Origin: Candidatus Kapaibacterium sp.
GTDB lineage: Bacteria; Bacteroidota; Ignavibacteria; Kapaibacteriales; UBA4661
Direction of reading: 5' to 3'
Assembly: GCA_025358765.1 (NCBI GenBank)
Contig: JANYIG010000342.1
Span: 1 to 43,334 of the forward strand
DNA length: 43,334 nt
Shown here: one piece after another, positions 25,368 through 29,643 of the stretch
How positions within the stretch are numbered: the first letter of the stretch is position 1
How the letters are laid out: each line of letters begins with the position of its first letter
Notes under the pieces: generated by a model
Seen by the model: only the letters and a program-made list of their open reading frames with translations
Told to the model about the DNA's origin: nothing
The model's database searches: none
Translations under genes and position numbers: made by a program

Positions 25368-25835
25368 ATGACCGCATTTCAGCAGCAATTTCCTATTGAT
25401 AACGACCTCTATGTCGAGGTTTCACGTGATAATAATGGCGCAACATGGTCTGACCAGATAACGCTTCAGTTGTGCATCGAACACAGCAAAATGGAAGTGG
25501 GAAAACTTCACCTCCGCTCCTTAGAAGCGCTTTCGTACAGTGGATTTGGTGGGGATGATTTCTTTCAACATGGTTTGAAATCTATCGAACCAGGTAAAGG
25601 ATATGCACATCGGCTTCACGACTTTTTGATAACGCACAAAGAGCAACTGCCCTTTGCTATCCGCAACGTTTATTCAACAAACCCAGGCGTGGATAATCTG
25701 TATTTTGTGTTGCCTAATCAACCGCGTCTGTACCTCTCAGAAAGCGCAATTCGATTCTGGAACAAGCGTATTGAGCGGAGTAAAGCTGAATATGTTGATG
25801 TAATGAAGCGCTATAAAATTACATGGAATCCGTAG
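25368..25835 (+). CDS. Uncharacterised 155-residue cytoplasmic protein
   Basis: I do not recognise the family with confidence. The protein is soluble, begins MTAFQQQFPIDNDLYVEVSRDN, and contains alternating strands and helices. GKGYAHRLHDFLITHKEQLP in the middle and AIRFWNKRIERSKAEY near the end are faintly like the cofactor-binding loop and last helix of GNAT acyltransferases, so a distant GNAT-like fold is possible. It stands alone, converging with the methyltransferase/MTHFR fusion gene. The leader from 25173 to 25367 shows nothing definite. Confidence 0.6.
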   Translation: MTAFQQQFPIDNDLYVEVSRDNNGATWSDQITLQLCIEHSKMEVGKLHLRSLEALSYSGFGGDDFFQHGLKSIEPGKGYAHRLHDFLITHKEQLPFAIRNVYSTNPGVDNLYFVLPNQPRLYLSESAIRFWNKRIERSKAEYVDVMKRYKITWNP

Positions 25836-25863: not shown

Positions 25864-27723
25864 TCACAACTGCTCCAGAATCTCCACCGCCATCGAATAT
25901 TTCTTAAACGGCGGCATCAGATACACGCCGTCTATCATTGGTTTTGCTGCCCGCAAGAACTCCACTGCAAGTTTAATTCCCTCGCGTGAAGCGGCTTCAA
26001 CGCCACCGCCTGCGTTTGCGTCGTGGATACGTTTGCGAACCCAGTCAGGGATATTCATTCCCGGAACCTCGTGATGCAGAAAATCCGCATGACGCGCAGA
26101 CCGCAGCGGAATGATACCTAACATGAAGCGAATATTGATGTGTTTTGTACGGTTTAAAAACGATTCCAGCGTTCGGATGTCAAAAATCGGCTGTGAGAAC
26201 GCGATGTGAGCGCCTTGCTCTGCTTTTTCCGCCAGACGGCGTACCTCGCGCTCCATATCGTAGGCAACAGGGTTACAGCCACAACTAATGCAAAATTGCG
26301 TGTGCGAACCAATCGGATTGCCCATCAAATCCCGCCCTTGATTCATTTGCCCTAAAGAGCGAATCAGACCAACAGCATCCACATCATAAACCGACGTAGC
26401 ATAAGGAAAATCGCCAATCTGTGCGGGATCGCCTGTGACAGCAAGAATATTTTTTACACCCATCGCATGAGCACCTAACAACTCAGATTGCAAGCCAATC
26501 ATATTGCGGTCGCGGCAAGCAAGGTGCGCCTGACACTCAATGCCTATTTGCGTTTGGACAATCTGCGAAATCGCTATTGAACTCATCCGTAGCCTTGCAC
26601 GTGCGCCATCCGAAATATTTACAGCATCTAATCCATGTTCTTTCAGATATTGTGCGCCTTCGAGAATGCTTGATAAATCTAATCCGCGCGGCACGTCGAG
26701 TTCAACTGTTGCCAAAAACTTTGTCCCCAAATTCCGCGAAAACTGCGTAGAACCATCTTCCGAAGGCGGTTCAGATTTTTCCGCTTTTGCGGGTTTGATT
26801 TCCACTTTCATGCTGCCTACAACCACGCCTTGAAGCGCCTCGGCAATCGCCTTGATATGTGCGACCGTTGCACCGCCCTCGGCACCCACAATCAACGCTC
26901 CCGCCTCAGCCAAACGTCGTACGGAGTTTGCAACGTAGCTCGGTTCGCCGTTGTAGAACGACTTACCATCCACGAGCGTGGGAATGCCGATATCTGGCTG
27001 AGCAATCATAGGAACCCCTGATTGCGTGGCTTCTGCGTGAAGCCCCTTCACAATGTCCATCATACGCTGTGGTCCGACGGTGCCGTTTGTGCCAATCGCC
27101 GCAACGCCTTTACTGATGAGCCTTCGCGCAATATCGCTCGGATACGAGGTGGAAAGGACAGCGCCGTCTTCTGGGAACGTTTTTTGTGCAATAATCGGCA
27201 TTTCCGGTGCCACGAATTGCACGGCTTCGATGGCGATTTCAAGTTCCACAACGTCAATAAACGATTTCAGCATAATAACGTCTGCACCGCCATCCACCAG
27301 TGCTATGGCTTGGTCAATAAACGCCTGTCGCACGTCGTCGGGTTTGAGGTTGCCAAGCGGGGTAAGGAATTTTCCTGCCGGACCAATCACGCCCGCCACA
27401 TACGCCTTATGGAGCGCTGCACAGCGAGCTATCCACACGCCTTTGCGGTTAAATTCATAGACTTTTTCGCCCAAACCGTAGCGTTCAAGCGCAAGGCGGT
27501 TAGCGTGTTCGGTGTTGGTCTGGATGAGCATAGCGCCCGCGTTCATAAATTCGCGGTGAATTGTTTCGACCAACACAGGGTCTTTCGTGTTATAGACACA
27601 AGGCGGAAACTCATTCGCACCACGAGCAGCAAGCTCGGTAGCCATTGAGCCATCTGTCAAAAGCGGCGTTGATTCATGTAATCGGTCGGTAAACGTTATT
27701 TTTGAATGTTGAGAACGTATCAT
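25864..27723 (-). CDS. Homocysteine S-methyltransferase-like / methylenetetrahydrofolate reductase fusion, zinc site lost
   Basis: A 619-residue fusion with the layout of Bacillus YitJ. The C-terminal half (about 335-619) is an FAD-dependent MTHFR reducing methylene-THF: ATVELDVPRG with the catalytic Glu, HLACRDRNMIGLQS, VTGDPAQIGDFP and AFSQPIFD. The N-terminal half (about 1-300) has the Pfam S-methyl_trans fold (LLTDGSMATEL, IQTNTEHANRLALERYGL), but all three zinc-binding Cys are absent: the usual GxNC reads GTNG (Gly214) and the usual GGCCG reads GAEGG (Glu282, Gly283). Homocysteine activation by zinc is therefore unlikely. It follows acsA by 30 bases, probably in one transcript. ATG at 27723 preferred over TTG at 27732. 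Confidence 0.88.
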   Translation of the reverse strand: MIRSQHSKITFTDRLHESTPLLTDGSMATELAARGANEFPPCVYNTKDPVLVETIHREFMNAGAMLIQTNTEHANRLALERYGLGEKVYEFNRKGVWIARCAALHKAYVAGVIGPAGKFLTPLGNLKPDDVRQAFIDQAIALVDGGADVIMLKSFIDVVELEIAIEAVQFVAPEMPIIAQKTFPEDGAVLSTSYPSDIARRLISKGVAAIGTNGTVGPQRMMDIVKGLHAEATQSGVPMIAQPDIGIPTLVDGKSFYNGEPSYVANSVRRLAEAGALIVGAEGGATVAHIKAIAEALQGVVVGSMKVEIKPAKAEKSEPPSEDGSTQFSRNLGTKFLATVELDVPRGLDLSSILEGAQYLKEHGLDAVNISDGARARLRMSSIAISQIVQTQIGIECQAHLACRDRNMIGLQSELLGAHAMGVKNILAVTGDPAQIGDFPYATSVYDVDAVGLIRSLGQMNQGRDLMGNPIGSHTQFCISCGCNPVAYDMEREVRRLAEKAEQGAHIAFSQPIFDIRTLESFLNRTKHINIRFMLGIIPLRSARHADFLHHEVPGMNIPDWVRKRIHDANAGGGVEAASREGIKLAVEFLRAAKPMIDGVYLMPPFKKYSMAVEILEQL

Positions 27724-27753
27724 TTCAAGCAACGAGGGTGAAACAAAAAAAAA

Positions 27754-29643
27754 TTAATCTGCAAGCGTTGACAAATCGCCAGGATCTTGTCCAAGCGATT
27801 CCGCTTTTAAGTAACGACGAACAATCTTGCCACTGCGCGTTTTGGGAAGCGAATCGCGGAACTCTACTTCGCTCGGCGTGGCTATGGGTCCAAGCTCGCG
27901 GCGTACGTGGTCTATGAGTATAGATTTCATGGTATCGGAAGCCTCGTGTCCAGCCCGTAGCACCACAAATACCTTAATCCGTTCGCCTTTAAGTTCATCC
28001 GGTAATCCCACAACGGCGGATTCTGCTACGGCCGCATGAGTAATAAGCGCTCCTTCAACTTCTGCTGTGCCAATGCGATGTCCGGCAACTTTGATTACAT
28101 CATCCGAGCGCCCCAAAACACAGTAGTAGCCGTCTTCGTCGTAAAACGCCACATCGCCGCTTGTATAGCAGCCCGGAAAGTCTTTCCAATACTCTTTGTA
28201 GCGCTCGTCGTCATTCCACACAGTTCGCATCATGTAGGGAAGCGGTCTGCGGAGGACGAGCGTTCCACCGGTGTTTGGCGGAACCTGATTGCCCTCAGCA
28301 TCCAAAATCGCTAGAACAACGCCCGGAAGCGGCTTGCCCGCCTTACCGAGCCGCGCATCGAATGCCGGCAGCGTACCAATAACGGGCGAGGCGATTTCTG
28401 TTTGCCACCAATTATCCACGACGTAGCCGCCATCGCCGACGATGTTGTCTTGTGCCCATTGATGGGCTTCGGGGTTGAGTGGCTCTCCGGCGCAAGCTAC
28501 AAGCCGCAATGTGGAAAGGTCGTATTTTTTAATTGGCTCTGCGCCATGCTTCATAAACATCCGCACCGCCGTCGGAGCCGTAAACATGACATTCACGCCA
28601 TGACGTTGTACCGTTTTCCAGACGATAGACGGGTCGGGATAATCCAATGCTCCCTCGCGAGCAAGCACCGTAGCGCCGTTGATAAGCGGTCCATAAACGA
28701 TATAGCTATGCCCGACTATCCAGCCGATGTCGGACGTACTCCAAAAAATATCTGTTGGCTTAATGTCGTAAAAAGCTCGTGAAAGATAATACGTTCCCAC
28801 CATGTAGCCACCATGCACGTGGACAACACCTTTGGGTTTACCGGTAGTCCCGCTTGTGTACAGGATGAAAAGCGGGTCTTCTGAATCCATGATTTCCGGC
28901 TCGCACCACTGTGGCTGCCCTTTGATAAAATCATAAAAGTCAATCTCACGGCTTGAAGCCATATCCAATAGCGGCTCTTGACGACGATGGACGATGATAT
29001 GTTGCACAGAATCAAGTCCTTCGACAGCGCTGTCAACGATAGATTTTAAGCTAACACGCTTGCCTGCACGATATGTCACGTCTGAGCAAATAACCATCTT
29101 TGCACCACTATCCTCAATCCGTGTACGAAGCGCTTGAACACCCATTCCCGCATAGACCACCGAATGAATCGCACCAATCCTTGCGCACGCGAGCATTGAA
29201 CAGATTCCCTCCGGCGTGAGTGGCATGTAGATGATAACACGGTCGCCTTTGCCCACACCCGCACTTTTGAGCGCATTGGCTAACTGGCAGACGCGGCGCA
29301 GCAAGCGGTCGTATGTCATTACGTGTTCTGCCCCTTCTTCGGTCATCCAGATAAGCGCCACTTTATTGCGGAGTGCGCCTTTTGCATGGCGATCAAGCGC
29401 GTTTATCGTGATATTCGTTTTGCCGCCCAAAAACCACTTGTGGTGCGGCGGCGTGAATTCAACGACTTTGTGCCATTTCTCTGTCCACTCCAATTCCGCA
29501 GCAATACTGCCCCAAAACCATTCTGGCGAGCTAATTGAATGCTGATAAAGTGATTCATAATCTCGAATCATCGCACCATCACGGAGAAACGAAGGTGGCG
29601 TGATCACACGCTGTTCGGTAATCAAGGTTTCAATAGCATTCAT
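27754..29643 (-). CDS. acsA: Acetate-CoA ligase (acetyl-CoA synthetase)
   Basis: Activates acetate to acetyl-CoA through acetyl-AMP. ANL-superfamily motifs: the P-loop YTSGTTGKPKG, the acetate-pocket segment WSTSDIGWIVGHSYIVYGPL, YTSGDVAFYDEDGYYCVLGRSDDVIKVAGHRIGTAEVE with the hinge, and SGKIVRRYLK near the C-terminus, where Lys606 is the conserved catalytic Lys controlled by acetylation in this family. Length 629 is slightly short at the N-terminus compared with the usual 640-660. Upstream and divergent is the GNAT-argG-argC group. Confidence 0.94.
   Translation of the reverse strand: MNAIETLITEQRVITPPSFLRDGAMIRDYESLYQHSISSPEWFWGSIAAELEWTEKWHKVVEFTPPHHKWFLGGKTNITINALDRHAKGALRNKVALIWMTEEGAEHVMTYDRLLRRVCQLANALKSAGVGKGDRVIIYMPLTPEGICSMLACARIGAIHSVVYAGMGVQALRTRIEDSGAKMVICSDVTYRAGKRVSLKSIVDSAVEGLDSVQHIIVHRRQEPLLDMASSREIDFYDFIKGQPQWCEPEIMDSEDPLFILYTSGTTGKPKGVVHVHGGYMVGTYYLSRAFYDIKPTDIFWSTSDIGWIVGHSYIVYGPLINGATVLAREGALDYPDPSIVWKTVQRHGVNVMFTAPTAVRMFMKHGAEPIKKYDLSTLRLVACAGEPLNPEAHQWAQDNIVGDGGYVVDNWWQTEIASPVIGTLPAFDARLGKAGKPLPGVVLAILDAEGNQVPPNTGGTLVLRRPLPYMMRTVWNDDERYKEYWKDFPGCYTSGDVAFYDEDGYYCVLGRSDDVIKVAGHRIGTAEVEGALITHAAVAESAVVGLPDELKGERIKVFVVLRAGHEASDTMKSILIDHVRRELGPIATPSEVEFRDSLPKTRSGKIVRRYLKAESLGQDPGDLSTLAD

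Follow-up and report, generated by a model that had tools for sequence, protein, structure and literature searches.

A methylenetetrahydrofolate reductase fusion of Kapabacteria and related families whose homocysteine methyltransferase half has lost its zinc site

The window, a 43,334-nucleotide stretch of a Candidatus Kapaibacterium sp. genome, encodes a fusion of a homocysteine methyltransferase (HMT) half and a methylenetetrahydrofolate reductase (MTHFR) half. Judged from its sequence, the fusion is a member of a known family that fails the defining catalytic feature of that family, the zinc site of the HMT half. The best reading of these data is a working MTHFR joined to a pseudo-HMT barrel with a re-tooled pocket. 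The features on which this reading is based are listed in Table 1.

Table 1. Positions of the fusion gene, its domains and changed site residues, and of the separate metH of the same genome
Feature	Position	Strand	Basis or remark
HMT-MTHFR fusion gene, ATG start	25864..27723	(-)	NF006396, 599.6 bits
Zinc-less pseudo-homocysteine methyltransferase barrel (S-methyl_trans)	26833..27663	(-)	Pfam; fold kept in AlphaFold model
MTHFR half	25873..26721	(-)	Pfam; sole MTHFR found in genome
Lys156 for Glu of (F/L)ETF, reads KSF	27265..27267	(-)	Alignment, codon
Gly217 for first zinc Cys (GxNC), reads GTNG	27082..27084	(-)	Alignment, codon
Asp247 for Asn of PNAG, reads PDIG	26992..26994	(-)	Alignment, codon
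Glu285-Gly286 for zinc Cys pair (GGCCG), reads GAEGG	26875..26880	(-)	Alignment, codons
metH (HMT-pterin-B12)	L190:1648-4467		MetH of the window's genome
MetH reactivation domain, separate ORF	G000:C249:761-1612		Contig C249

The open reading frame of the fusion spans 25864..27732 on the (-) strand. The ATG at 27723 was the likely start because its position agrees with the starts of the orthologs, and the end coordinate of the preliminary description was therefore right. Residue numbers (P0001) count from the TTG at 27732, so that the ATG is residue 4 and 3 must be subtracted to number from it. The protein matched NCBIfam NF006396, "bifunctional homocysteine S-methyltransferase/methylenetetrahydrofolate reductase" (PRK08645, YitJ type), over profile positions 4-601 of 611, with a score far above the cut-off of 453 bits. 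The Pfam domains S-methyl_trans (PF02574) and MTHFR (PF02219) were found at residues 24-300 (158.6 bits, cut-off 22) and 338-596 (102 bits), respectively. The domain order and length were the same as those of the YitJ-type fusions. Membership in NF006396 and PF02574 was thus supported by the profile scores and, for PF02574, by the barrel fold, while the (Cys)3 zinc site of both families was absent.

The zinc positions were set by alignment with the genome's own MetH, the fusions that retain the cysteines (Cys-type), and solved structures, and the codons were verified. All three zinc cysteines claimed to be missing in the preliminary description were indeed lost, at Gly217, Glu285, and Gly286. 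Among the 70 zinc-less rows collected, no Cys was present at 217 or 286, and a lone Cys occurred at 285 in two. Furthermore, the HMT halves of these rows had no conserved Cys, shifted or otherwise, with a median of 2 Cys per row (range 0-5) and fewer than three in 37 of the 70. The remaining site residues had also changed. Residue 156, a Glu in 100% of the Cys-type fusions (n = 29), was Lys in 87% of the clade, with Ser (5/70), Arg (3/70), and Leu (1/70) as the exceptions; residue 247 was Asp in 97%; and residue 285 was Asp or Glu in 61 of the 70 (87%). The counterpart of residue 156 is presumably one of the carboxylates that hold the amino group of homocysteine, and the Asn of PNAG presumably binds the zinc of T. 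maritima MetH in its resting state. Two other residues of the homocysteine pocket were retained to different degrees: Thr74 was kept in 70/70 members, and Asp27 was kept in 53/70 and lost in several branches. Carboxylates have been found to hold the homocysteine amino group in both MetH and MetE (PMC539065).

Over the 622 residues, 11 positions were conserved at ≥80% within both groups yet different between them. They included four residues of the zinc and homocysteine site (156, 217, 247, and 286) together with the neighbouring 157, and the chance of at least four of the seven site residues falling among the eleven was about 2e-6. The homocysteine site was probably lost along with the zinc ligands. 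Consistent with the preliminary description, the absence of the three cysteines from the sequence suggests that the HMT half would not activate homocysteine through zinc. We infer that both the zinc chemistry and homocysteine activation are absent, and that the barrel has been put to some other use; the preliminary description had suggested that it may regulate MTHFR, bind folate, or carry out a different methyl transfer.

The AlphaFold model had a mean pLDDT of 88.3 with the barrels kept, and its best PDB matches were T. maritima MetH, BHMT, MmuM, and MTHFRs. The HMT module of T. maritima MetH (1q7m/3bof) was both the best sequence match of the HMT half (117 bits) and the top structure match; MetH carries (Cys)3Zn with cobalamin and folate modules, and its zinc ligands are absent here. 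In the model, all changed site positions lay where the barrel strands end on their C-terminal side, or just past that point. The earlier statement that the rest of the fold is intact therefore stood for the fold and failed for the pocket, where Lys156 and Asp247 replace Glu and Asn. In the model, the mouth of the barrel may be an open pocket or may be plugged by a Lys-Asp salt bridge.

The MTHFR half, described earlier as intact, was found to have both the PF02219 fold and the catalytic residues of the family (the acid, the Asp of GDP, and the Gln). Glu344, Asp435, and Gln514 were invariant in the clade; the phmmer alignments extended over the GDP and Q segments (Asp435 and Gln514), and Glu344 corresponded to E. 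coli Glu28 by motif only. In addition, the AlphaFold model matched T. thermophilus MTHFR with a TM of 0.83 on the target length. The fusion was the only MTHFR match in every genome carrying the zinc-less form, the window's genome included, which makes reductase activity likely. Cys400, Cys406, and Cys484 of this half were highly conserved in the zinc-less clade (58/70, 70/70, and 67/70, respectively); Cys400 was not among the commonest residues of the sampled Cys-type groups, and Cys484 was common to the clade and its nearest sisters.

The survey of the fusion's distribution covered the genome of the window together with 60 relatives. The zinc-less form was full-length in 45 of these genomes and present as a fragment with the same motifs in one. 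A Cys-type fusion, about 38% identical, occurred in eight genomes, all of family f3, and a stand-alone MTHFR in four; neither an MTHFR nor a fusion was found in three. In family f8, which belongs to the same order, the MTHFR is a stand-alone protein. The 70 zinc-less orthologs came from Kapabacteria and two related families, all without the zinc site, and the labels of the named matches ("Candidatus Kapaibacterium" and "Ignavibacteria" MAGs) placed the group in Kapabacteria, although one zinc-less row (L116) was from a MAG labelled Armatimonadetes. Within the same class, two further families (f16 and f18) were also zinc-less, and four (f11, f14, f19, and f23) kept GxNC and GACCGS. The Cys-type sisters were about 48% identical to the zinc-less fusion. 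Two Cys-type fusions of one f3 genus, L048 (G027) and L051 (G053), lacked two of the three zinc cysteines, with the motifs GxNS and GGCL/GGCV; there the site has eroded in part and independently.

In trees obtained by quick searches, the 70 zinc-less rows formed one clade, both for the whole protein (SH-aLRT 100) and for the MTHFR half only, which holds no trait columns (99); the latter tree required a single state change. The loss of the zinc site thus defines a clade, a possibility that had been raised in the preliminary description. The root was placed among Cys-type rows (Rubrobacter, Zixibacteria, Armatimonadota, and others), and the outgroups therefore point to loss of the zinc site as the direction of change. 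A sequencing or assembly error was ruled out by the 70 orthologs with the same loss.

Decay after fusion was likewise ruled out, by dN/dS and by conservation. The dN/dS of the HMT half was 0.02-0.11 in close pairs, similar to that of the reductase half, and 72 positions of the HMT half were conserved at ≥90% in the zinc-less clade compared with 70 in the Cys-type fusions. Selection acts on the barrel, whose active site was remodelled a single time and has been maintained since.

The possibility that the fusion is the main methionine synthase of the genome was not borne out. Contig C140 encoded a separate MetH composed of HMT, pterin, and B12 domains, its zinc motifs (GLNC and GGCCGT) intact; no MetE was found in the window's genome. 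The MetH reactivation domain was encoded by a separate open reading frame on another contig. The same split was observed in families f1 and f9, and the MetH of f4 was divided at another place. An Mrr-type restriction endonuclease gene (L190:704-1696) directly followed metH, the listed frames overlapping by about 50 bases. Moreover, the genome had three strong matches to PF01053 enzymes of the trans-sulfuration/sulfhydrylation type, and a supply of homocysteine is therefore probable. Every genome with the zinc-less fusion had a MetE or at least some portion of a MetH: seven relatives (G014, G023, G028, G030, G036, G041, and G046) had MetE without MetH, and the rest had MetH, or parts of it where the genome was incomplete. 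Because the fusion is the sole MTHFR found and a separate MetH or MetE accompanies it, the cell needs the reductase half to make methyl-folate, and the HMT half is dispensable for homocysteine methylation. The presence of MetH alone does not explain the zinc loss, since the Cys-type fusions of f3 coexist with MetH. A MetH-specific or MetH-docking role of the barrel is disfavoured, because genomes with MetE have retained the half just as those with MetH have.

The acs gene (acetate-CoA ligase; window 27754-29643) lies upstream of the fusion on the same strand, separated from its TTG by 21 bases, and the two may form one operon in the window; the neighbours differed in other Kapabacteria. A DoxX/MauE-like gene was upstream of the fusion in 24 loci. 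Downstream, RDD, tryptophan-dioxygenase-like, and ComF-like genes occurred in 11-20 loci. All of these were identified by eye from sequence, and none was in the window. A 155-aa open reading frame beside the fusion on the opposite strand (window 25368-25835) had no Pfam match. No neighbour gene that would suggest a substrate was conserved across the clade, and the neighbourhoods gave no clue to function.

In the proposed mechanism, the fusion is the sole MTHFR of the cell and feeds methyl-folate to a separate MetH, or to MetE in some relatives. The N-terminal barrel descends from a zinc-dependent homocysteine methyltransferase, and its three Cys ligands and the Glu were lost a single time, in the common ancestor of Kapabacteria and the two related families. 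Its mouth was rebuilt with the conserved Lys156 and Asp247 and usually an acid at 285, and methyl transfer to homocysteine would have been abandoned. The barrel may now bind another ligand, most likely a methionine-cycle metabolite, and thereby tune the reductase. That the barrel is a ligand-binding regulator of the attached reductase is put forward tentatively, at somewhat less than an even chance; it is favoured because specific charged residues are kept at the mouth and because MTHFR catalyzes the committed step. The fuller version, in which a dead HMT became a metabolite sensor exerting allosteric control over a bacterial MTHFR independently of the eukaryotic SAM domain, is rather unlikely as it stands. 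The sensor reading is weakened by the replacement of Lys156 in 9 of the 70 rows, and by the fact that a scaffold would predict much of the same pattern. It is also weakened by a 2026 review, in which prokaryotic MTHFRs are not highly SAM-regulated, unlike the eukaryotic enzymes, and SAM regulation is a eukaryotic trait (PMC13001107).

A purely structural role of the barrel as a scaffold is unlikely, yet it has a direct precedent in the N-terminal barrel of MetE, which is of the homocysteine type and whose fold persisted although it no longer binds metal or homocysteine (PMC539065). The preserved fold of the AlphaFold model agrees with such a role, which would suit genomes with MetH and genomes with MetE alike. 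However, a scaffold does not require the set of charged residues held at the mouth at the frequencies given above, and the stand-alone MTHFR of f8 also argues against it. A somewhat less probable alternative is a new zinc-free catalysis coupled to the methyl-folate made by the reductase half, by methyl or one-carbon transfer to or from another substrate or by use of another metal held by carboxylates. The strong constraint on the HMT half and the coordinated replacement of the zinc- and homocysteine-site residues would fit this alternative, but Lys156 is not universal, Asp27 is missing from several branches, and no clade-wide neighbour gene hints at a substrate. It is very improbable that the HMT half is a passive relic retained through its fusion to an essential reductase: the other methionine synthase, whole or in part, in every genome would make homocysteine methylation here dispensable, but the half is conserved as strongly as in the Cys-type fusions, its dN/dS is low, and its new residues are themselves conserved. 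Finally, a working homocysteine methyltransferase, without zinc or with zinc on shifted residues, is hardly credible despite the retained Asp27 and Thr74, given that no replacement Cys is conserved, that the invariant Glu became Lys with reversal of charge, and that zinc is needed by all known methionine synthases (PMC7005905).

Under the preferred reading, the fusion can be compared with known systems. Relative to the NF006396 type, the zinc cysteines are all gone, Glu is replaced by Lys, and Asn by Asp, and homocysteine methyltransferase activity would not be expected from such a sequence. The fusion resembles the N-terminal barrel of MetE in that the fold was kept and the zinc site lost; in MetE the dead barrel is paired with a working zinc/homocysteine barrel, whereas the partner here is MTHFR. 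If the barrel were a sensor, the logic would be similar to that of eukaryotic MTHFR with its SAM-binding regulatory domain, an extra domain on a committed step (PMC11018872, PMC13001107). However, the eukaryotic domain has a different fold and is C-terminal, whereas the barrel is N-terminal and its regulation is only proposed. A search of the open-access literature found no zinc-less HMT-MTHFR fusion, and the word "fusion" is absent from the 2026 MTHFR review (PMC13001107).

Under the name homocysteine methyltransferase, which annotation pipelines assign to it, the fusion may be counted among the methionine synthases, and in Kapabacteria and their kin this half should not work so. The zinc-less clade and its Cys-type sisters form a clean natural pair for studying the conversion of an enzyme domain into a pseudoenzyme. 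The finding would be of wider interest if the sensor reading were true: a barrel that senses a methionine-cycle metabolite would make this a regulated bacterial MTHFR, whereas the 2026 review ascribes regulation by SAM to eukaryotes (PMC13001107).
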